Shown: positions 5,518-23,000 of the stretch, in pieces | Layout: the number at the start of each line of letters is the position of its first letter | How positions within the stretch are numbered: the first letter of the stretch is position 1 | Source: an uncultured Cellulomonas sp. | GTDB lineage: Bacteria > Actinomycetota > Actinomycetes > Actinomycetales > Cellulomonadaceae | Assembly: GCF_947494015.1 (NCBI RefSeq) | Contig: NZ_CANLTL010000012.1 | Location: forward strand, 83,558-147,557 | Reading direction: 5' to 3' | Length of the DNA: 64,000 bases | Notes under the pieces: model-generated | Seen by the model: only the letters and a program-made list of their open reading frames with translations | Database searches by the model: none | Told to the model about the DNA's origin: nothing | Translations under genes and position numbers: made by a program

Positions 5518-6197
5518 CGCGCCGTCGCGCCCGCCCTGTACCCGACGCCGCGGACGGTCACCACGATCTCGGGCCGCTCCGGGTCGGCCTCGATCTTCGA
5601 GCGCAGGCGCTGCACGTGGACGTTGACCAACCGGGTGTCCGCCGCGTGGCGGTACCCCCAGACCTTCTCCAGGAGGACCTCGCGGGTGAAGACCTGCCAG
5701 GGCTTGCGCGCGAGCGCGACCAGGAGGTCGAACTCGAGCGGCGTCAGCGAGATCGCGGCGCCGTCGCGGGTCACCCGGTGGCCGGTGACGTCGATCTCCA
5801 GGTCGCCGATGGTCAGGTGCTCGGGGGTGGGCTCGTCGCTGCGGCGCAGCCGGGCACGCACCCGGGCGACCAGCTCCTTGGGCTTGAACGGCTTGGAGAT
5901 GTAGTCGTCCGCGCCCGACTCCAGGCCCAGGACGACGTCGACCGTGTCGCTCTTGGCGGTGAGCATGACGATCGGCACGCCGGACTCGGCCCGGATCAGC
6001 CGGCACACCTCGGTCCCGTCCTTGCCGGGCAGCATGAGGTCCAGCAGGACCAGGTCCGGCTGGACGGAGCGGAACATGCCCAGCGCCTCGTCCCCGTGCG
6101 CGCAGATCACCGGCTCGAACCCCTCCGAGCGCAGCACGATCCCGATCATCTCGGCGAGAGCGACGTCGTCGTCGACCACCAGCACACGACCCTTCAT
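5514..6197 (-). CDS. mtrA: MtrA OmpR-family response regulator
   Basis: MKGRVLVVDDDVALAEMIGIVLRSEGFEPV...LVLLDLMLPGKDG...PFKPKELVARVRARLRR; winged-helix C-terminus. Confidence 0.95.
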   Translation of the reverse strand: MKGRVLVVDDDVALAEMIGIVLRSEGFEPVICAHGDEALGMFRSVQPDLVLLDLMLPGKDGTEVCRLIRAESGVPIVMLTAKSDTVDVVLGLESGADDYISKPFKPKELVARVRARLRRSDEPTPEHLTIGDLEIDVTGHRVTRDGAAISLTPLEFDLLVALARKPWQVFTREVLLEKVWGYRHAADTRLVNVHVQRLRSKIEADPERPEIVVTVRGVGYRAGATAR

Positions 6198-6297
6198 GAC
6201 CCCATGGTGTCACCCCGACGCACCGGCACGCTGCACGGTGGGGCCGCACGGACGAGGGACGGTCGGCGGGCGCCGCGCAGCCGGTCGCGTCCCGTGC

Positions 6298-12273: not shown

Positions 12274-12876
12274 ATGCCCCGACGCGCAGCGGCCGACGAC
12301 GCCCGGGTGGCGGCCCTCGCCGCCAGCCGCGCCCTGCTCACGGTGACCGCCGTCGCGGTCGCGGCCGGGGCGCTGGTCGCCGCGTGCGCACCGTCGACCA
12401 CGGGCCGCCGCGGGGCCGGTGCGCACCGCACGCCCGCACCCCGGGCACGGGTCGACGCCGCCCTGCGCGAGGCCGGTGCGAGCGGCCTCGGCGTCGCCGT
12501 GTGGGTGCCGAACGGGCTGTGGCTGGACGGTGACCCGGGCGCGGAGCCGTTCGTCCGAGCCCTGGAGTGGGTCGCGACCACCGGACCGTCGGCCGCGCCG
12601 TCGGGCACCGTGACCGTGCGCCAGGACGCGGCCGGCGACGGGGCGGTGCGCGTGGTGGTGACCGACGACGACGCGGAGCTGGCCGCGGCGCTGGCCACCC
12701 TGGCGGACGCCGACACGCTCGTCCGCGACCGTGCCGGCTGGCTCGTCGTCACCGGCAGCAGCGTCCGCCCCCTGCTCGCCGGGGACCGGGCCGGCCTGCC
12801 CGGCACGTTCACCGTCGCGCAGCTGCGCGACCGGCTCGCCGCCCGCGCCCCGGGCGGCGAGCCGGTCGGCAGCTGA
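12274..12876 (+). CDS. Putative lipoprotein, unknown function
   Basis: TM helix plus lipobox-like LVAAC near N-terminus; ORF and start codon fit gene spacing. Confidence 0.6.
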   Translation: MPRRAAADDARVAALAASRALLTVTAVAVAAGALVAACAPSTTGRRGAGAHRTPAPRARVDAALREAGASGLGVAVWVPNGLWLDGDPGAEPFVRALEWVATTGPSAAPSGTVTVRQDAAGDGAVRVVVTDDDAELAAALATLADADTLVRDRAGWLVVTGSSVRPLLAGDRAGLPGTFTVAQLRDRLAARAPGGEPVGS

Positions 12877-12904
12877 CCACGGGGGCAGCCGGTACGGTCA
12901 CGGC

Positions 12905-13516
12905 ATGACCCAGGGCCCCGACGCAGCCGCGCGCCCGCCCGGCGGACCGCGGGTGCCGCGGGCGGACCGGCCACCGGCCGCGCCCCCGCGCCCCGCACTG
13001 GACGGCGAGGGCTTCGCCGCCGCGATGGAGCTCGGCGGGCCGCCGCCCGCCCTGGTCACGGCGGTCCTGCTCTGGCTCGCCGGCAGCGCCGCCGCGCTCG
13101 TCGCCGTCGCAGCGCTGTGGATGCAGCGGGCGGCGGTCCAGGGGCGGCTGGCCGCGGTCGCCGTCGAGCAGGACCCGTCGGTCGCCGCCGACGTCGTCGC
13201 CGAGAGCGTCCGGTACGCGTTCGCCGCCGCTGCCGGCGGGGTCGCGCTGGTCGCCGTCGTCCATGCGGCCCTCGCGCTGCTGCTGCGCCGGGGACGGTCC
13301 TGGGCGCGACCGGCTCTGGTGGTCGCCGGTGCACTGGGCGTCGCGGTGGCCGTCGCGGTGCAGGAACTCGCCGCGGCCCCGGACCGTGCCCTGCTCGCCG
13401 ACCCCGTGCGGGTCGCGCTGCTGGTCCACGCCGGGCTCGTCGTGGCGGCGCTCGGCGCGATGCTCACCCCGAGCGCGGGACGGTGGCTCAGGCGCGCCCG
13501 GGCGCTGCGACGCTGA
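12905..13516 (+). CDS. Hypothetical membrane protein (about 4 TM helices)
   Basis: LVTAVLLWLAGSAAALVAVAALWM... hydrophobic segments; converges with the IniC-like gene, 3' ends overlapping 29 bp. Confidence 0.6.
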   Translation: MTQGPDAAARPPGGPRVPRADRPPAAPPRPALDGEGFAAAMELGGPPPALVTAVLLWLAGSAAALVAVAALWMQRAAVQGRLAAVAVEQDPSVAADVVAESVRYAFAAAAGGVALVAVVHAALALLLRRGRSWARPALVVAGALGVAVAVAVQELAAAPDRALLADPVRVALLVHAGLVVAALGAMLTPSAGRWLRRARALRR

Positions 13517-15038
13517 CGGGCTCGAGCAGCGCCTCGCACGTGCGCACCACCAGCCGGCAGGCCCGACGCGTCTCGCGGTCGGCCAGCGGGTGCCGGCCCC
13601 GCTCCAGCCACTCCTCGCGCGCCCGTCGGGCGGCCTCGGCCACGCGGTCGGGTTCGGCGTCGGGGGGCAGCGCCAGCCGGTCGGTCGGCCGGTCGCCCTG
13701 GGCCCCGAGCAACCGCTCCGCCGCGGCCAGGGCGTCGGCGGGCAGCGCGAGGCCCGGGGTCCGCAGCGCCCTCAGCAGCTCGAGCTCGCGCACACCGTGC
13801 CCGGCCAGCGTCAGCCGCTCGCACTCGGCCGCCAGCTCGCGTCCCCCCGGGACGGGGTGCTCGTCCAGCAGCCGGGTCAGGGCCAGCACCGCGCCCTGGG
13901 CCCGCAGGACGTCCCGCCGCGCGGTCAGCTGGGCGTCGAGCACCCGGCGCAGCTCGGTCAGCCCGCTGCGGCGCTCGAGCTCGCCCGCCAGCACCGGCGC
14001 GGGCAGGTCCTGGGTGCGCAGCAGGGTGAGCGCGAGCCGGACGCCGAACAGCCCGAACCGGGACAGCAGCGCGGCCCGCGCCGCGGCCGGCACGGGCAGG
14101 TCGAGGGACGGCCGCCGGAACCGGTCGACCGACAGCAGCAGCCCGTCGGTCACCGTCCGGTCCAGCCGGGCCAGCGCGCGCAGGTCGGCGACCTCGTCCT
14201 CGCGCAGCGTCTGCCCGGTCACGGCGAGCAGCCCGGCGACCGGTACCACGGTCTGCACCAGCGGTCGCAACGACGCCTCCCCGCGGTACCGCTCGGCCAC
14301 ACGCCCGGAGGCGATCATCGCGTCGATCCGGCCCACCCCGACCTCGTCCGCGCGGGACAGCACGGCGACGGTCCCCGGCGCCGCCCCGCGTGCCCCGCGG
14401 CCGGCGCCGAACGACTCCAGGAACCGGACGTCGGTCGCGTGCAGGTGTCTGAGCAGGTAGACCACCGCGTCGACCACGGGCTCGCCGTCGGCCGGCTCGC
14501 CGTCGTCGCCGGTGAGGAACGCCCGGGTCCGCTCGGAGACGTCACGGGAGAGCGAGTCCAGCCCGGGGGTGTCCACCAGCGTCGTGCGCCGCAGGCCCGG
14601 TGCCGGCCACCCCACCTCGATCCGGTCGATCTGCGGCGCCGGTCGCCCGCGCAGGTCGATCTCCAGCCCGCCGGGTCCGCGCCGCGGCGGGCTGGACCAG
14701 GGGGCGCCGTCGACCGGGTGCACGGTGACCGACGGCGTCCGGGTCCACCGGTACCAGGTCAGCACCCGGGTGCACTCGGCGTGGTCGCTGGCGGCGAGCT
14801 CCACGCCGAGCAGCGCGTTGAGCAGGGTCGACTTGCCGGCCTTGAGCTTGCCGGCCAGCGCGACCCGCAGCGGTGCGTCGAGGCCGGCGAGCCGACGCTC
14901 GAGCGTGCCGACCGCCTCGGCGGCACCGGCGCCGGGTGCGGCGGCGTAGGCCGCCACCGCCCGGTCCAGCAGGTGGCGGACCTCCACGACGGCGCGGGGG
15001 CCGGGGCTCTGCTGCGCGGGCTCGTCCGCTCCGCTCAC
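13488..15038 (-). CDS. iniC: Dynamin-like GTPase, IniC-like
   Basis: P-loop VALAGKLKAGKSTLLNALLGVELAASDHAECTRVLTWY, G3 LVDTPGLDSLSRD, G4-like LSRADEVG; paired with the IniA-like gene. Confidence 0.82.
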   Translation of the reverse strand: MSGADEPAQQSPGPRAVVEVRHLLDRAVAAYAAAPGAGAAEAVGTLERRLAGLDAPLRVALAGKLKAGKSTLLNALLGVELAASDHAECTRVLTWYRWTRTPSVTVHPVDGAPWSSPPRRGPGGLEIDLRGRPAPQIDRIEVGWPAPGLRRTTLVDTPGLDSLSRDVSERTRAFLTGDDGEPADGEPVVDAVVYLLRHLHATDVRFLESFGAGRGARGAAPGTVAVLSRADEVGVGRIDAMIASGRVAERYRGEASLRPLVQTVVPVAGLLAVTGQTLREDEVADLRALARLDRTVTDGLLLSVDRFRRPSLDLPVPAAARAALLSRFGLFGVRLALTLLRTQDLPAPVLAGELERRSGLTELRRVLDAQLTARRDVLRAQGAVLALTRLLDEHPVPGGRELAAECERLTLAGHGVRELELLRALRTPGLALPADALAAAERLLGAQGDRPTDRLALPPDAEPDRVAEAARRAREEWLERGRHPLADRETRRACRLVVRTCEALLEPVSVAAPGRA

Positions 15039-16888
15039 GCCGGCACCCCCACGCGGGTGGCCGGGGCGTCGACCAGCCGCGCCGCGGCGGCCCGGACGCC
15101 CTCGATGCGGGCCACCGTCGCGCGGACGTGCGCGGCACGCTCGGCGCGGTCCGCCTCGCCCGCCTTGGCGGCCTCGCGCGCGGTGCGCACCGAGTCGTCC
15201 AGCGACCGGTACAGCTCGTCCGCCGTCGTCGTGAAGTGGTCCCGCAGGACCCGCTGCATCGTGCGCAGGCGGTCCTTGGAGTCCTTGCTCACCTGGAAGA
15301 TCACCTCGTCGACGTGCCGGCGCACGGCCGCCTTGGCCTCGGCCTGGCGGCGCTTGACCCGGGCCCGGTGGTCGTCCCGGTACGCCTTGCCGCCCATGAT
15401 GACGCCGATGCCGACGGAGAACGGGTTGATGATCGACATCCCGAGGGTGACCGCCGTGACCATCCCGAACATCAGGATCCCGCCGTAGGACCCGCGCAGG
15501 GCGATCAGCGTCTTCTGCGTCGGCCCGACGCGCTCGACCTCGACCCGCTCCAGGCGCGCGACCAGCTCGAGCACCTCGTCGCTGTCGCCGCGGAGCAGCT
15601 CGGGCAGGGCCACGGTGCCGTCCCGGTCGAAGTGCTGGGCGACCTGCCCCGCGAGCCACTGGGCCCGCTCGTGCGCCCACACGAAGTTGGCGGCCACCGC
15701 GGAGGCGATCCGCTGGACCAGCCAGCCGTCGAACTCGTCCCACACGACCCCGGGGTCAGCGGTGTCGACCGCCTCCTCGGCCTCCCGGGTGATCTTGCGC
15801 AGCCGGTCGCGCAGGTCGTACTCGACGTCCGCGGCCAGATCGGTCACCCCGTCGCCCAGCGTCTGCTGCCATCGCGCGGAGCGGCGCCGCAGCTCTCCCG
15901 TGGTCTCGCGCGCGGCCACCAGCTCCTCGATCATCGCGGCGCTGCCGGCGGGGTCCTCCAGGGCGCTGAGCTCGGCCCGGGCGGACATGGCCAGGTGGTC
16001 GGTGACCGCCAGGACGTCGTGCGTGGTCGACCGGCGCGCCAGCGTGCCGGCCCGGCCGACGACGTCCTCACGCAGGTACGACACGAGCTCGGGGAAGCCG
16101 GACTCCCCGTGCAGGTCGGCGTCGCGGGTGCGCGCGGCGTGCAGCCGCAGCGCGGACGACACCGGCATGAGCCGCACCCGCGCCCCCGCCGCCTCCAGGT
16201 GCCCGCGGTCGAGGTCGGCGACCTGCCGCCACTGCGGGTACAGGTCCGTCTTGGTCAGCACGCAGGCGACGGTGGGGCACAACCGCATGGCGTGGTCGAG
16301 GAACTCCAGCTCGGGCTCGGAGTACTCCTGGGCGGCGTCCGACACCAGCAGCACCGCGTCGGCGGTCGGCAGGGCCGCCATCGTGTTCGCGGCATGGGTC
16401 GACCCGAGGCCGCCCACGCCCGGGGTGTCGACGAGCACCAGCCCGTCGGCGAGCAGGCTGCGCGGCAGGGTCACCTCGGCGTGCGAGAGCCGGCGGGCGT
16501 TGCCGGGGTTGCCGAGCTCGGACACGTGCTCGGCCAACGACTCCAGCGGGACCGGCACCCGGGTGGCCGACGCCGTCGCGGCGGCACCGGAGCCGTCGTC
16601 CGGCAGGTCGGGGGGCGCCAGGACGAGTGTGGCGGACGGCACGTCACCGTGCGCGACCACGGTCGGCACCGAGGTCGCGACGTCGTCGTCGACCGGGCAC
16701 ACCGGCGCGTTGACCAAGGCGTTCACGAGCTGGCTCTTGCCCTGCTTGAACTCCCCCACCACGAGCACCCGGACGTGCGGGTCCCGCAGGCGGCGTCGGG
16801 CCGCCTCCAGGCGAGCCATGAGGTCGGGGCGTCCCGAGTCGGCCGTCACCTCGACGGCACGGTCGAGCAGGTCGGCAAGTGGTTCCAC
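15035..16888 (-). CDS. iniA: Dynamin-like GTPase, IniA-like
   Basis: P-loop VLVVGEFKQGKSQLVNALVNAPVCPVDDDVATSVPT, G3 LVDTPGVGGLGS, G4 LTKTDLYP, hydrophobic membrane-insertion segment GGILMFGMVTAVTLGMSIINPFSVGIGVIMGGKAY. Confidence 0.87.
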   Translation of the reverse strand: MEPLADLLDRAVEVTADSGRPDLMARLEAARRRLRDPHVRVLVVGEFKQGKSQLVNALVNAPVCPVDDDVATSVPTVVAHGDVPSATLVLAPPDLPDDGSGAAATASATRVPVPLESLAEHVSELGNPGNARRLSHAEVTLPRSLLADGLVLVDTPGVGGLGSTHAANTMAALPTADAVLLVSDAAQEYSEPELEFLDHAMRLCPTVACVLTKTDLYPQWRQVADLDRGHLEAAGARVRLMPVSSALRLHAARTRDADLHGESGFPELVSYLREDVVGRAGTLARRSTTHDVLAVTDHLAMSARAELSALEDPAGSAAMIEELVAARETTGELRRRSARWQQTLGDGVTDLAADVEYDLRDRLRKITREAEEAVDTADPGVVWDEFDGWLVQRIASAVAANFVWAHERAQWLAGQVAQHFDRDGTVALPELLRGDSDEVLELVARLERVEVERVGPTQKTLIALRGSYGGILMFGMVTAVTLGMSIINPFSVGIGVIMGGKAYRDDHRARVKRRQAEAKAAVRRHVDEVIFQVSKDSKDRLRTMQRVLRDHFTTTADELYRSLDDSVRTAREAAKAGEADRAERAAHVRATVARIEGVRAAAARLVDAPATRVGVPA

Positions 16889-17002
16889 GCGGCAGCTCCA
16901 GGGGTCGCACCGAGTAACCCATCGCGTGGGCAGGTCCCGCAACACCGGCGCGCCAGGTGGTGCGGGACCTGTCCCGCGGACGTGGGCCGCGGACCGGCGC
17001 AC

Positions 17003-17049: not shown

Positions 17050-18369
17050 TCAGGCGATCGGGTCCTCCTCCTCCACCGGCGGCAGCCCGTCGACGTCGGT
17101 GGAGTTGTCGGAGTTGTCGCTGTTGTCGGAGTTGTCGGAGTTGTCGCTGAGCACGATGTCGTCGTAGCCGTCGTCGTCGGAGTTGTCGGAGTTGTCGCTG
17201 TTGTCCGAGTTGTCGCTGTTGTCGACGACGGAGTTGTCGACCACCGAGTTGTCGGAGTGGTCGGAGTTGTCGACCACCGAGTTGTCGGAGTTGTCGCTGT
17301 TGTCCGAGTTGTCGGAGCTGTCGACGACCGAGTTGTCGACCACCGAGTTGTCGGAGTTGTCGGAGTTGTCGGAGTTGTCCGAGCTGTCGACGACCGAGTT
17401 GTCGACCACCGAGTTGTCGGAGTTGTCGGAGTTGTCGCTGTTGTCCGAGTTGTCGCTGTTGTCGACGACCGAGTTGTCGACCACCGAGTTGTCGCTGTTG
17501 TCCGAGTTGTCGGAGTTGTCGCTGCTGTCGACCACCGAGTTGTCGGAGTTGTCCGAGTTGTCGGAGTTGTCGCTGCTGTCGACGATCGAGTTGTCGACCA
17601 CCGAGTTGTCGCTGTTGTCGGAGTTGTCCGAGCTGTCGACCACCGAGTTGTCGCTGTTGTCGCTGTTGTCCGAGTTGTCGGAGCTGTCGACGACCGAGTT
17701 GTCCGTCACCGAGTTGTCGGAGTTGTCGGAGTTGTCCGAGTTGTCGGAGTGGTCCGAGCTGTCCGAGTTGCCCACGACGTTGCCGTCGCCGAGCACGTTG
17801 CCCGCCCCGACCACGGCCGGCCCGCTGATGTCCTCGCCCGCCGCGACGCCGCCGTTGGCGACCACGGGGTGGATGTCGAACATCTGCTCCACGTCGCCGT
17901 CGGCCCAGATGTTCTGGTTGACCGAGCTGTCCACCACGGTGTCGCGGTCGTCGATGATCGTCGAGTTGTACGTGTAGGTGGCGATGAGGTTCTGCAGCTG
18001 GGGGACGACGTCGTCGCCGCTGCCCGCCGCGCTCCCGGCACCGACGGCGGCCGGGACCGCAGCCGGCGCCGCGGCAGCGGAGGCGGCCGGGACGGCGCTG
18101 ACGGCACCGCCGCCGCCCGAGCTCCCGCCGGAGCCGCTGAGGGTCGCCGGCGCGGAGTTGCCGCCGCCGAAGTCGTAGTCCCGGTCCATGCTGACCGGGG
18201 ACTGGTCGAGCACCACCGGGATGACGTCGTCGAGGTCGGCCGAGGTGATGTCGCCCAGACCCGCGTCCTCGAGGGCGCCCTGCGGGTCCTCGACGAAGGC
18301 CTGCGCGGCCTCGGGGTCACGGAGCAGGTTGAGGATGAAGTCCAGGAGCGTGCTGGCTACGTGCGGCAT
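17050..18369 (-). CDS. iniB: IniB N-terminal-domain protein with long Asp-Asn-Ser repeat tail
   Basis: N-terminus MPHVASTLLDFILNLLRDPEAAQAFVEDPQGALEDAGLGDITSADLDDVIPVVLD resembles mycobacterial IniB N-terminus; C-terminal part is DNSDNSDNSVVDNSVVDSS... repeats; directly upstream of two dynamin-like genes. Confidence 0.85.
   Translation of the reverse strand: MPHVASTLLDFILNLLRDPEAAQAFVEDPQGALEDAGLGDITSADLDDVIPVVLDQSPVSMDRDYDFGGGNSAPATLSGSGGSSGGGGAVSAVPAASAAAAPAAVPAAVGAGSAAGSGDDVVPQLQNLIATYTYNSTIIDDRDTVVDSSVNQNIWADGDVEQMFDIHPVVANGGVAAGEDISGPAVVGAGNVLGDGNVVGNSDSSDHSDNSDNSDNSDNSVTDNSVVDSSDNSDNSDNSDNSVVDSSDNSDNSDNSVVDNSIVDSSDNSDNSDNSDNSVVDSSDNSDNSDNSDNSVVDNSVVDNSDNSDNSDNSDNSDNSVVDNSVVDSSDNSDNSDNSDNSVVDNSVVDSSDNSDNSDNSDNSVVDNSDHSDNSVVDNSVVDNSDNSDNSDNSDNSDDDGYDDIVLSDNSDNSDNSDNSDNSTDVDGLPPVEEEDPIA
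17098..17770. repeat. 9-bp tandem repeat array (gtcggagtt/gtcgctgtt family) encoding (DNS)n with VVDNS/VVDSS interruptions
   Basis: Direct reading of the sequence within the iniB-like CDS. Confidence 0.95.
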
Positions 18370-18687
18370 GTCGATCCCTCTCGTGCTGGGTGCGGGCGTG
18401 CTGCCCAGGTGGACGCTAGGGAGGGCCGGCGGGTGCAGGTATCGGGGACTTGCCCCCTACTTGGCCGTCGCCGTTGGGGGATCCTGCGCATTCCGGCGGT
18501 CGAGGGCGACGCGCGGGTCGGTGACACCTCGTCGGCGGCGACGGAGCGGGATCCCGGGGTCGACCGTCAGGTGAATCTGGGGTGAAAGGGACGAAACGGC
18601 TGGTCCGCTCGGTGCGGACGGGGGCATCATGGGCCCCGCGGGCGCCGACGAAGGACTCGCGGCGTCTGCGTGGGGAGAGGGCCGGGC
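18370..18687. promoter_or_regulatory. Divergent control region between iniB-like and Hsp70-like genes
   Basis: 318-bp gap between divergent starts; contains GGGGacttgCCCC inverted repeat (about 18444-18457) and several GGGGA/GGGGT blocks. Confidence 0.5.
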
Positions 18688-19953
18688 ATGGGGTACACCC
18701 TGGGGGTCGATCTCGGCGGCCCGGAACCGGTCGCCGCCGTCGGCCACCCGGACGGCAGCTCGTCGGTCGTGGTCGGCCTGCCCGCCGCCACGCTGACCGA
18801 CGCGGTGGATCGGCTGGGGACCCCCCAGGACGGCTGGGACGGCGTCGGCACCGCTCCCCTCGTGCTGGCGGACGCCGTCGCGCGCTGCGTGGGGCACGCC
18901 GCGGCGACCCGGCGTGACCGGCCGTCCGACCTGGTGGTCAGCCACCCGGCGGCGTGGGGCCCGTACCGCGTGGGCCTGCTCGCCGATGCGCTGCGCGGCC
19001 ACGACCTGCCACCGTGGCGCCTGCTCCCGGACACCGTCGCGATCGCCCGTCAGGCCGCTGCGACGGATCCCCGCCTCGCACTCGGGCCGTGCCGGCTGGC
19101 CGTCGTCGACATCCGCGACGAGCAGACGAGCGTGGGCGTGGTGGCGGTCGCCGGGGACGCGCAGCCGGCCCCGCCGCCCCGCCTCGTCGGCCCGGTCCGG
19201 GTGGTCGCGGAGCTCGCCTCCGCCGACCTGGACGACGCCGTCCTGGCACACACCGTCGCGGTCGCCGCGGACCTCGGGCTCCTCGACGCGTCCGGGCTGA
19301 CGCCGGATGCGGCCGAGCGGCTGCGCGCCGCCTGCCGATCCGCGGCGGACGAGGTGCTGACCGCCGGTTCGGCGGTCGTGGGCTACCCGGCCCCGGACGG
19401 CGCCCGGCCGATCCGGTCGGTGCTCGCCGACGTGGAGCCCCGGCTGCACGACCGCAGCCGCCACGCCGTCGCGCAGGTCGCCGCGGCGGTGGGCAGGCTC
19501 GCACCCGCCGGCGTCGACGCGGTCGTGCTGTGCGGCCGGCTCGCCGCGATGCCGCTGCTGACCGAGCTCGTCGCCGAGCGGTTCGACGCCCCCGTCACCG
19601 TGGTGCCCGGCGGCGACACCGTCGCGGCCCGCGGAGCGGCGACCGCGGCGGCGCTGCTGCGCCCCGAGCCCGCCGCCGACCGCACCGCCGTCCCCCGTCC
19701 CCGCGACACGGACGCAGCCGCCGCCGAGGGGGATGCGGCTCACCGTCACGGTCGCCGCCGCGCCCCGGTGCGGTCCCGGCCCAGCTCCCGCCCGCTGCGG
19801 GCGACCGCCGCGGCGTGGATCGGGACGCTGGTCCTCGGGGTGCTCGCCGCGGCGGTCGCCGACGACGCCGTCGCGCGCAGCGACCACGGGCACGACGCGC
19901 CGGCCGGCGTCGTGGTCACGGATCCGCCGCCGCCCGGGACGTCGCGCGGATGA
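18688..19953 (+). CDS. Hsp70/actin-fold ATPase-like protein lacking a substrate-binding domain, with C-terminal TM helix
   Basis: MGYTLGVDLGG phosphate-1-like, VVSHPAAWGPYRVGLL, VVLCGRLAAMPLLTELVAERF adenosine-like motif; C-terminal WIGTLVLGVLAAAVADDAV helix. Confidence 0.75.
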   Translation: MGYTLGVDLGGPEPVAAVGHPDGSSSVVVGLPAATLTDAVDRLGTPQDGWDGVGTAPLVLADAVARCVGHAAATRRDRPSDLVVSHPAAWGPYRVGLLADALRGHDLPPWRLLPDTVAIARQAAATDPRLALGPCRLAVVDIRDEQTSVGVVAVAGDAQPAPPPRLVGPVRVVAELASADLDDAVLAHTVAVAADLGLLDASGLTPDAAERLRAACRSAADEVLTAGSAVVGYPAPDGARPIRSVLADVEPRLHDRSRHAVAQVAAAVGRLAPAGVDAVVLCGRLAAMPLLTELVAERFDAPVTVVPGGDTVAARGAATAAALLRPEPAADRTAVPRPRDTDAAAAEGDAAHRHGRRRAPVRSRPSSRPLRATAAAWIGTLVLGVLAAAVADDAVARSDHGHDAPAGVVVTDPPPPGTSRG

Positions 19954-22900
19954 CCGCGACGCTGCCGCCCCCCGCCCCCGACGTCCCGGTCGCCGACCCG
20001 GCGACCGGTGGCACCGCCGCCGGAGGAGGACCGGCGGCCGCGCTCACCGCCCACCCCGTGCTCGGCCGTGCGCTGTCGTGGGTCGACCGGACCCCACAGG
20101 CGCCGCTGGTGCTGGCGATCTGCGGCACCGGCGGCACCGGCAAGTCGACGGCACTGGCCGCGCTGCGAGCCGCGTACCGCGCGGCGGGCGACCCGGTGGT
20201 GAGCGTGCGTGGACGGGCCGGCGTCCGGCCGGACGACCTCGCCGCCGCCGGCAGCCGTCCCGTCCTGGTCGACGACGCCCACCTGCTGCCGGTGGACGCC
20301 CTGGAGTGGCTGCTCGAGCGCGCCGACGACGACGCGACCCGGCTCGTCCTCGCACACCGGCCGTGGCCCCGGCCGGCTCCGCTGGCCGACCTCGTGCGCG
20401 AGCTGGACGCGCGCGCGGCCGTGGTCGGGCTGGGCGCCCTGGACCGGTCCGGGGTCGCGGCGCTCGCGCACCACCGCCTGGGCCGGCCGGCACCCGCCTC
20501 GGTCGTGGACGCCGTGGTCCACCTGTCCGCGGGGGTGCCGCGGCTCGCCGACCTGCTGCTGACCGACGCGGCGCTGAGCGGCGCGGCGTCGCCGCCCACG
20601 GCCGGGCCGACGCGGCCCGCACCCTGGCCACGGGCGTGGCCGGGATCCGCGGTGCTCGCCCAGGTCGACACGGACCTCGACGCCGCCGGGAGCGGGGCAC
20701 GCGCGGTCGTGCTCGCCCTCGCGCTCGGCGGCACACCGGAGCCCGCGGTGCTGTCCCCCGCGCTGGGACTGGCTCCGGATGTCGTCGCGCGCTCGCTGCA
20801 GACGGTCGGCGCAGCGGGACTGCTGCTCGCCGACGGGTCGGTCGTGCCGGTGGTGGCGCAGGCGCTGCTGGCGGCGTGCCCGCCCCGGGAGGCCCGCGCC
20901 GTCGTCCGCGCCCTGATCCGGGCCGGCCTGGACCACGGCGACGACGCCGCGGCGGTGGCGGCCCGCTTCGACGGCCACGGCGGCGGCCCGGAGCTGGTCG
21001 TGGCGCTGCGGGACGCGGCGGCCGCGGTCGGCGCGACGGACCCGGCGCGCGCGGCCGACCTGCTGCGCGCGGGCCTGCCGACCGGTGCGTCGGATCCCGC
21101 GGCGGTCGTGGAGCAGGCACGGTACGCGGCACTGGCCGGTGACCTGCACCGCGCCACCGCCCTGGTCGACGACGTGCTGGCGGCGGCGAGCGGACCGGTC
21201 GCCGCGGCGGCCGCGTCGGTGGCGACCGCGGTCCTCGCGCACCGCGGCCAGCTCGCCACCGCGGCCGCACCGCACCGAATCAACGCCGGCACCGGGTCGC
21301 AGCCGACCCCGGGCACGTGGCAGCCGCGGGTGACCTGTCCGGACGACCCGGCGGGCGAGGCCGCCGCCACCGTCGTGCTGCTGGGCTCGGGTGCCGTCAC
21401 GTCGTGCCTGCCCGGACCCGGCGCCACGGCCACCGCTCCCGGTGCCGGCACCCGCACCGGCACGGACGGGGCCACCGGTACCGTCGAGGTCCGGTCCGGG
21501 CCGGCGCCGGGCGCGACCACGCGGTCGTGCGCGCAGGCGCTGCTGGCCCAGGGCCTGCGTGAGTCGGTGCTCGGGGACGGCCGGCGCTGCCTGGCCACGC
21601 TGTCCCGGGCGTCGGCCCTGGTGGGCGGCGACGGCCGCGACACCCTCATGGCGGACACCCCGGCCGCGCTCGGCGCACTCGCCGCGCTCAGCGCCGGCGA
21701 GCCGGGGCACGCCGAGCGGCTGCTGCACCGGGCGATCGGCAACGGCGAGGGCGGCCCGGTCGCACAGCCCCGCCACCACCTGCTGCTCGCGTGGGTCGCG
21801 ATGGTCGGCGGACGGTGCGAGGAGGCGCGCGCGCGGGTGGCCGTGGCCCGGACGGCCGCCGGGGACCGCTGGGGCGAGCGCGACGAGCTCGTCCTGCGGG
21901 CGCTGGAGGTCGGGGTGGCGCGCCGGTCGCACGACCTGGGCGCGCTCACCCGCGCGTGGCCCGGCGCCTGGCAGGCGCTGCTCGGCCACGGGCTGGACCT
22001 GTTCATGCTGCTGCCCCTCGGCGAGCTCGCGGTCGCGGCGGCGCGCCTGGACCGCTCCCACCAGGTGGCGGCCCACCTGGAGGAGGCGGGCGGGCTGCTG
22101 GCCCGCGCCGGGGAGCCGGTGCTGTGGGCCACGCCCCTGCACTGGTACGGGGTGCGGGCGGCGATCGTCGCGGAGCGGCCCGAGTCGGTCGCCCCGCACG
22201 CCACCGCACTGGTCCGCGGCGCGGCGACCAGCCGCCACGCCGCGATGCTCGCCGAGGCGGGCCGGGTCTGGGTGCAGGTGCTCGCCGGGCGCGTGGAGCC
22301 GGCAGCCGTCGAGCGGGTGGCGCGCCGGCTGCACGCGGCCGGGCTCGGCTGGGACGGCGCGCGGCTCGCCGCGCACGCCGCGGCGCACACCGAGGACCCG
22401 CGCAGCGGGGGCCGCCTGCTGCACGTCGCACGCGACCTGCGCGCGGGCACGGACCGGGCCGTGACACCGGCGCCCGTCCTCCCGGCGGTGGGACACCGGC
22501 GGGTGCCGTCGGACGCGGCGGCCCCGGTGGCGTCACCGCGGCCGTCCCCGACGCCGGCGAGCACGGCGCCGACGCGGGCGGCCGCCGTGCCGGCGTCGTC
22601 GTCCGCCGGCCCGGCTGCGGGGACCGCTCGCGGCTGGACGGGTGCCGCGACGCCCCCGGCGGCACCGGTGCGGGCGGCCGGCGGGCCGCCGTCGTCAGCG
22701 CGGGAGGCGGCCGGGACGCGGACCGCGCCGGGACGGCCGGACCCCTCCGGCCTCGGGGACGCGGCACCCGAGATGGCCGTCCACCTGTCCGTGCGCGAGC
22801 TGGAGGTCGCGCGCCTGGTGGTGGCCGGGCACACCTACCGCGAGATCTCCGAGCGGCTGTACATCTCCGCCAAGACGGTGGAGCACCACATGGCCCGCAT

Positions 22901-23000
22901 GCGGCAGCGGCTCGGGCTGGAGTCACGGGCGGCGCTGCTGTCGCACCTGCGCGCCCGGGTCGCCACGCTGCCCGGGGAGCGACCGGAGCAGCCGGCCTGA
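19950..23000 (+). CDS. Large STAND-type ATPase with C-terminal LuxR HTH (MalT/IniR-like regulator)
   Basis: Walker A ICGTGGTGKSTAL, Walker B RPVLVDDAHLLP, C-terminal LSVRELEVARLVVAGHTYREISERLYISAKTVEHHMARMRQRLGLESRAALL; ATGA overlap with the Hsp70-like gene. Confidence 0.88.
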   Translation: MTATLPPPAPDVPVADPATGGTAAGGGPAAALTAHPVLGRALSWVDRTPQAPLVLAICGTGGTGKSTALAALRAAYRAAGDPVVSVRGRAGVRPDDLAAAGSRPVLVDDAHLLPVDALEWLLERADDDATRLVLAHRPWPRPAPLADLVRELDARAAVVGLGALDRSGVAALAHHRLGRPAPASVVDAVVHLSAGVPRLADLLLTDAALSGAASPPTAGPTRPAPWPRAWPGSAVLAQVDTDLDAAGSGARAVVLALALGGTPEPAVLSPALGLAPDVVARSLQTVGAAGLLLADGSVVPVVAQALLAACPPREARAVVRALIRAGLDHGDDAAAVAARFDGHGGGPELVVALRDAAAAVGATDPARAADLLRAGLPTGASDPAAVVEQARYAALAGDLHRATALVDDVLAAASGPVAAAAASVATAVLAHRGQLATAAAPHRINAGTGSQPTPGTWQPRVTCPDDPAGEAAATVVLLGSGAVTSCLPGPGATATAPGAGTRTGTDGATGTVEVRSGPAPGATTRSCAQALLAQGLRESVLGDGRRCLATLSRASALVGGDGRDTLMADTPAALGALAALSAGEPGHAERLLHRAIGNGEGGPVAQPRHHLLLAWVAMVGGRCEEARARVAVARTAAGDRWGERDELVLRALEVGVARRSHDLGALTRAWPGAWQALLGHGLDLFMLLPLGELAVAAARLDRSHQVAAHLEEAGGLLARAGEPVLWATPLHWYGVRAAIVAERPESVAPHATALVRGAATSRHAAMLAEAGRVWVQVLAGRVEPAAVERVARRLHAAGLGWDGARLAAHAAAHTEDPRSGGRLLHVARDLRAGTDRAVTPAPVLPAVGHRRVPSDAAAPVASPRPSPTPASTAPTRAAAVPASSSAGPAAGTARGWTGAATPPAAPVRAAGGPPSSAREAAGTRTAPGRPDPSGLGDAAPEMAVHLSVRELEVARLVVAGHTYREISERLYISAKTVEHHMARMRQRLGLESRAALLSHLRARVATLPGERPEQPA

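Follow-up and report, generated by a model that had tools for sequence, protein, structure and literature searches.

A predicted ini locus of a Cellulomonas species headed by an IniB variant with an acidic Asp-Asn-Ser repeat tail

The iniBAC operon was first found as an isoniazid-induced operon in tuberculosis, and IniB has remained poorly understood. Cellulomonas has no mycolic-acid envelope. In a stretch of 64,000 nucleotides from an uncultured Cellulomonas sp. (contig NZ_CANLTL010000012.1; hereafter the window), a gene on the minus strand at 17050 to 18369 encodes a protein that a preliminary description, made from the sequence alone, had called IniB-like and that carries a long series of Asp-Asn-Ser (DNS) triplets. 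The locus raises two questions: is this protein an IniB, and what might an IniB do with such a tail? The open reading frame is intact, starts with ATG, encodes 439 amino acids, and ends in TDVDGLPPVEEEDPIA. Its GC content by codon position (0.59, 0.40, and 0.98) is coding-like.

The likeness to IniB held up well. Amino acids 7 to 55 (18205 to 18351, minus strand) match the IniB N-terminal domain profile NF038175 with 79.2 bits, against a curated cut-off of 40. The related profile NF038176, for the IniB*/Rv0340 family, scored 52.7 bits, under its cut-off of 100, and the protein was not assigned to that family. Since conservation extends to the complete ini locus with its promoter, we regard it as almost certain that the window protein is the IniB of an ini locus. 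Behind the N-terminal domain, on the same strand, lie a Gly/Ser/Ala linker (about amino acids 66 to 118; 18016 to 18174; pLDDT below 50), a helix predicted by AF2 between linker and repeat (amino acids 121 to 132), and a conserved motif, IDDRDTVVDSSVNQNIWADGDVEQMFDIHPVVANGGVAAGED (amino acids 139 to 180; 17830 to 17955), with 17 invariant columns in 22 aligned rows. This motif, SVNQNIWAxGDVxQxF in its core, was absent from the preliminary description. It precedes the DNS repeat tail (amino acids 209 to 423; 17101 to 17745), directly ahead of which stands a G-rich GNVxGDxNxVG stretch, and the protein closes with an acidic end (amino acids 424 to 439; 17053 to 17100).

By its gene order, iniB heads a complete ini (envelope-stress) locus in this Cellulomonas species. 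It lies directly upstream of genes for two dynamin-like GTPases on the minus strand, one iniA type (15035 to 17002; Dynamin_N, 69 bits), for which the Mycobacterium smegmatis IniA structure 6j72 is the best PDB match (E value of 2.8e-136), and one iniC type (13488 to 15038). Divergent from iniB, on the plus strand, are a DnaK/Hsp70-like gene (18670 to 19953; HSP70 E value of 0.0018, below the curated cut-off) and an adjacent iniR-type gene (19950 to 23000) encoding an AAA/STAND ATPase with a C-terminal LuxR helix-turn-helix (HTH) domain; the HTH is clear (GerE, 49.7 bits), and the AAA match is borderline. Homologues of the iniR-type protein occur at mycobacterial and related ini loci, with E values of about 1e-25 to 1e-31 in the ATPase region and 50 to 70% identity in the HTH region. 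The iniA stop codon and the GTG start of iniC share bases in a GTGA (15035 to 15038, minus strand), as do the stop codon of the DnaK-like gene and the ATG of the iniR-type gene in an ATGA (19950 to 19953, plus strand), which suggests translational coupling within each gene pair. In mycobacteria iniR is found next to iniBAC, and in M. smegmatis a dnaK-like gene lies beside iniR (PMC5760070).

A small membrane-protein-like open reading frame (12731 to 13516, plus strand) is convergent with iniC. A membrane protein occupies the same convergent position in 47 of 65 long ini loci, without homology to the window frame being implied.

Comparison of iniB upstream regions revealed a conserved promoter element of about 40 bp, CCCC[C/T]A-N15-AGGGG-N5-CCCCGAT, common to iniB loci of several actinobacterial families; in Cellulomonas, it is followed by CCTAG about 20 bp further on. 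In the window it reads CCCCCAAcggcgacggccaagTAGGGGGcaagtCCCCGAT (18441 to 18480, minus strand), and the candidate -10 region is CCTAGCGT (18413 to 18420, minus strand), in which CCTAGC is invariant in six Cellulomonas. Of the 79 loci, 32 have the strict pattern ahead of iniB, and 1.06 Mb of sequence contained it in only 1 other place; a looser form was found at most of the iniB loci. With a pattern of five base classes, the element occurs a single time in its own genome, at the window position. We infer that it is a candidate operator of the IniR-type regulator. IniR has been reported to regulate iniBAC exclusively (PMC5760070), and one regulator with one genomic target would agree with this.

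A query of genome contigs with the single protein returned no relatives; an alignment query returned 79 loci on nonmycobacterial actinobacterial contigs, from Cellulomonas, Arthrobacter and its kin, Microbacteriaceae, Georgenia, Pseudonocardiaceae, and others. No relatives were found in viral contigs and phages. An IniR match was present in all 65 of the long loci and matches to IniA and to IniC in 64; over all 79, many of which are cut by contig ends, the counts for IniA, IniC, and IniR were 71, 72, and 75, respectively. Several Microbacterium loci carry iniA and iniC convergent to iniB and not downstream of it. At L081 and L086, on Pseudonocardiales-type metagenome-assembled contigs, there is an IniB-like gene and no match to IniA, IniC, or IniR within the stretch examined. 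In a sample of 395 genomes of the class, which are related and so do not count as independent, IniB passed the cut-off in 37, every one of which belongs to the 49 that have IniA. Three of five Cellulomonas genomes had both iniB and iniA, and two had neither. Our literature search found no paper naming Cellulomonas together with IniB and none using the NCBIfam name.

The conserved motif was present in 9 of the 395 genomes, every one of them with IniA, and was not found in the mycobacteria of the sample. In diverged form it also occurs outside IniB. Extra proteins next to iniA (G371, G240, and G202) combine a diverged motif with DNS or NDSFN repeats and have no IniB domain, and a similar DNS-rich protein adjoins iniA in G378. 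In Microbacteriaceae-like genomes, such DNS/NDSFN-rich proteins lie directly beside iniA at L119 (212 to 2099), at L121 (2 to 1096), and, both on the minus strand, at L120 (about 6162 to 6281) and L126. As motif and DNS tail can stand beside iniA without the IniB domain, they appear to be tied to the dynamins and not to the IniB domain alone. We also considered the broader idea that IniA always has an acidic partner and rejected it: of 14 iniA loci with no adjacent IniB match, 2 had a diverged motif protein beside iniA, 3 had another acidic open reading frame, and 9 had no acidic frame in the stretch.

The Asp-Asn-Ser repeat that the preliminary description had reported is real. The reading frame occupies exactly 17050 to 18369, and the tail has 51 DNS triplets, as read in a draft assembly of 44 contigs, against 2.5 expected from composition. 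They form runs of 1 to 6 units interrupted by VVDNS, VVDSS, VTDNS, and IVDSS, and the VV, IV, and VT pairs are spaced mostly 17 and 5 amino acids apart, giving a super-unit of about 22 amino acids. The codon for Asp is always GAC and that for Asn always AAC (GC3 of 0.98). Ser codons are a well-mixed set of TCG, TCC, and AGC in proportions as in iniA, and identical neighboring Ser codons number 16, against 22 in shuffles, slightly fewer and thus not clustered. Most DNS units are therefore not recent copies, and the repeat does not look like the result of recent DNA slippage alone. There is one exact 57-bp repeat, with a spacing of 66 bp. The other genomic occurrence of GTGGTCGACAACTCG, on contig C7, is a lone 15-mer.

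Long (DNS)n tails are retained in two other Cellulomonas orthologues, those of C. aerilata (83 DNS) and C. fimi SB (58 DNS). Elsewhere the repeat is lineage specific: DSHN and NDSHDD units in Pseudonocardiaceae, SDDDTYSY units in Herbiconiux, and DSFN together with DNS in Arthrobacter, with NDSFN also among the units. Over 68 tails the median content of Asp/Glu is 30% and that of Lys/Arg 0.5%, and Cys is absent. Judged by these sequences, what is conserved is the composition of the tail, acidic and almost without Lys/Arg, and not the sequence of the repeat. A quick IniA tree places long DNS runs in separate positions (Cellulomonas, Mycetocola, and the A. agilis group), the length classes being arbitrary. 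A DNA pattern for (DNS)3 occurred in 7 of the 395 genomes, 5 times at ini loci and 2 times outside; both outside matches were judged to be chance, one being a run of three units within an NRPS-like protein (G410) and the other a DNT run within a TetR-like protein (G113).

Other members of the family have quite different tails. Gly/Ala-rich, barely charged ones are found in some mycobacteria and in Rhodococcus-like genomes and relatives. The preliminary description had set the DNS tail against a glycine-rich mycobacterial region. It is correct that some mycobacterial IniB proteins are Gly/Ala-rich and that the window protein lacks such a C-terminal region, but the contrast was drawn too sharply, as at least one mycobacterial-type IniB, that of L154, another genome of the same genus in the sample, itself has a tail of DNS and DSFN units, with TDNSIDIDDSFNTDNSTNDSFNDNSVDNSV toward its end. 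Because tails vary within the NF038175 family, we do not take a Gly/Ala-rich C terminus as defining IniB. At the opposite extreme of tail composition, IniB-like proteins at L156 (6988 to 9576) and L157 (6053 to 8929) carry very long Gly/Ala/Leu/Asp repeats of more than 860 amino acids.

Could the tail be simply tolerated, as a near-neutral, slippage-prone 9-bp repeat, while the N-terminal domain and the motif do the work? Its unit and length do change fast between lineages, short-tailed IniB members exist in Microbacterium, and the near-exact alternating repeat units of G378 suggest recent slippage there. We nevertheless consider this reading unlikely for the window protein, which has an unbroken frame and a mixture of Ser codons. 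The narrow range of composition over the 68 tails also argues against it, as does the recurrence of DNS-rich repeats in separate lineages and in iniA neighbors that lack the IniB domain.

A second reading takes IniB for a structural cell-wall protein or an exported one, as proposed for mycobacterial IniB, and has cations or wall polymers bound extracellularly by its acidic tail. This would suit an acidic and hydrophilic tail, and IniB has been called a homologue of cell-wall proteins from its Gly-rich region (PMC6715688, PMC13413693). Against this, the window protein has no signal-peptide-like or transmembrane-like stretch, as the preliminary description had noted for the signal peptide; the highest 19-residue Kyte-Doolittle mean, 1.39, falls in the Ala linker. 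The ESX-type signature YxxxD/E does not occur before the motif in the window protein and is found in the first 120 amino acids of only 27 of 80 family members. Since the likely partners are cytoplasmic dynamins as well, we think a role outside the cell improbable. Loose binding of cations by the tail is possible, but the divalent-cation-binding polymer that had been suggested is not supported in the form of a specific Ca2+ polymer, given a repeat unit that changes between lineages and a tail in which no RTX nonapeptide can be seen. Glycosylation, suggested at the same time, fares no better in its N-linked form, with a single N-x-S/T sequon in the tail against 52 Asn residues.

The regular triplets, the evenly spaced VV pairs, and the G-rich stretch just ahead of the tail invite a third reading, in which the repeat folds or polymerizes, as a β-solenoid or an amyloid-like fiber and perhaps with cations, into a scaffold for the dynamins. 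An AF2 model built with 39 relatives gave four N-terminal helices (amino acids 4 to 17, 19 to 27, 29 to 35, and 43 to 56; pLDDT of about 72 to 94 by blocks of 10 residues, mostly 80 to 94), the helix at amino acids 121 to 132, and low confidence in the rest, with a tail that had no strands and a pLDDT near or below 50. In a second, trimmed job the motif was near 50, and neither tail nor motif received a confident fold. A Foldseek search of the PDB gave no significant match. AF2 is biased toward false β-solenoids on perfect repeats (PMC11795689), and the missing solenoid therefore counts against one, although low confidence is weak evidence and no proof of disorder. Together with a repeat unit that is not conserved, this makes a folded or polymeric repeat, including the β-solenoid raised in the preliminary description, quite unlikely. 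The models suggest that the DNS tail is probably disordered.

The N-terminal domain also has faint likenesses to NHLP/LigA-like sequences. Among 20 members, NF038399 matched 11 (best E value of 3.8e-4) and LigA 7, all below curated cut-offs; SonA from the PDB matched the IniB N-terminal domain weakly (E value of 0.016), and SonA and LigA were among its top Foldseek matches, none of them significant. A distant link of the domain (18205 to 18351) to the NHLP/LigA-like leader superfamily is thus possible. That IniB is itself RiPP-like, a leader followed by a repeated core with enzymatically modified Asp, Asn, or Ser, is very improbable despite the consistency of these weak similarities, as every match stays below its curated cut-off and no typical modification enzyme was found among nine window neighbors examined or recognized in the families conserved across the 65 loci.

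The explanation that we prefer for the whole, tentatively and at somewhat less than an even chance, is that IniB is a cytoplasmic protein whose polyanionic tail helps the IniA/IniC dynamins by charge crowding. The IniR-type ATPase/LuxR activator would, on sensing some inducing signal, bind the one dedicated operator and probably switch on iniB, iniA, and iniC. With no visible export signal, IniB would probably stay in the cytoplasm. Its sequence-conserved parts, the SVNQNIWAxGDVxQxF motif and the helical N-terminal domain, probably bind proteins, and synteny and co-occurrence point to IniA/IniC as the likely partners. The tail, hydrated and disordered, would be a long polyanion in which selection maintains charge, length, and the lack of Lys/Arg and not the exact sequence; that relatives keep its charge and composition and not its sequence suggests a flexible polymer beside membrane-remodeling dynamin-like enzymes. 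Many such tails may gather with IniA/IniC at the stressed membrane. There, in what is the least certain step, like-charged disordered chains would crowd and repel each other, assisting weak IniA fission and keeping the assembly soluble.

Charge-crowding help is proposed because IniA alone shows little fission activity in vitro, with help from IniC suggested (PMC6715688), mycobacterial iniB transcript is apparently present in excess (PMC5760070), and in eukaryotic adaptors membrane curvature is driven by disordered domains (PMC4515776). What speaks most against the proposal is the very low charge of Gly/Ala-rich IniB tails, since repulsion between like charges can then not apply to every IniB protein. 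The several iniA loci with no recognizable IniB or acidic partner, and L081 and L086 with an IniB and no IniA match in the stretch, also count against it. A bolder form of the proposal sees in IniB and the DNS-rich proteins without an IniB domain the bacterial equivalent, induced by stress, of the disordered proteins that curve membranes in eukaryotes. They would be polyanionic, disordered membrane partners of IniA/IniC selected for composition and not for sequence, which would give acidic-tailed IniB a function other than that of a structural cell-wall protein. We regard this as speculative and, taken as a whole, rather unlikely.

How does the window protein compare with known systems? Its weak resemblance in N-terminal sequence and fold to NHLP/LigA-like leaders (SonA and the Os1348 family) stands against a locus in which no maturase was found and the partner genes encode dynamins. 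The eukaryotic proteins epsin and AP180 would act in a similar way, with a bulky disordered domain at membranes beside fission machinery, but without homology and as an analogy only. The IniB*/Rv0340 family (NF038176) matches its N-terminal 50 amino acids and differs in length and tail. Many actinobacteria with an ini locus lack a mycolic-acid outer layer. Locus, regulator, and promoter element are all present in such bacteria, which makes it improbable that mycolic acids are needed for what the system chiefly does. Two concrete, testable pieces of IniB are its composition-conserved tail and the NQNIWA motif. The closest counterpart is the IniB of mycobacterial iniBAC (Rv0341 type), with which the window protein shares the N-terminal domain, the position as first gene before iniA and iniC, and an adjacent IniR-type regulator; it differs in having the SVNQNIWA motif, which the sampled mycobacteria lack, and a long DNS tail in place of a Gly/Ala-rich one. 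The acidic DNS-tailed protein is a variant of IniB and not a new system.
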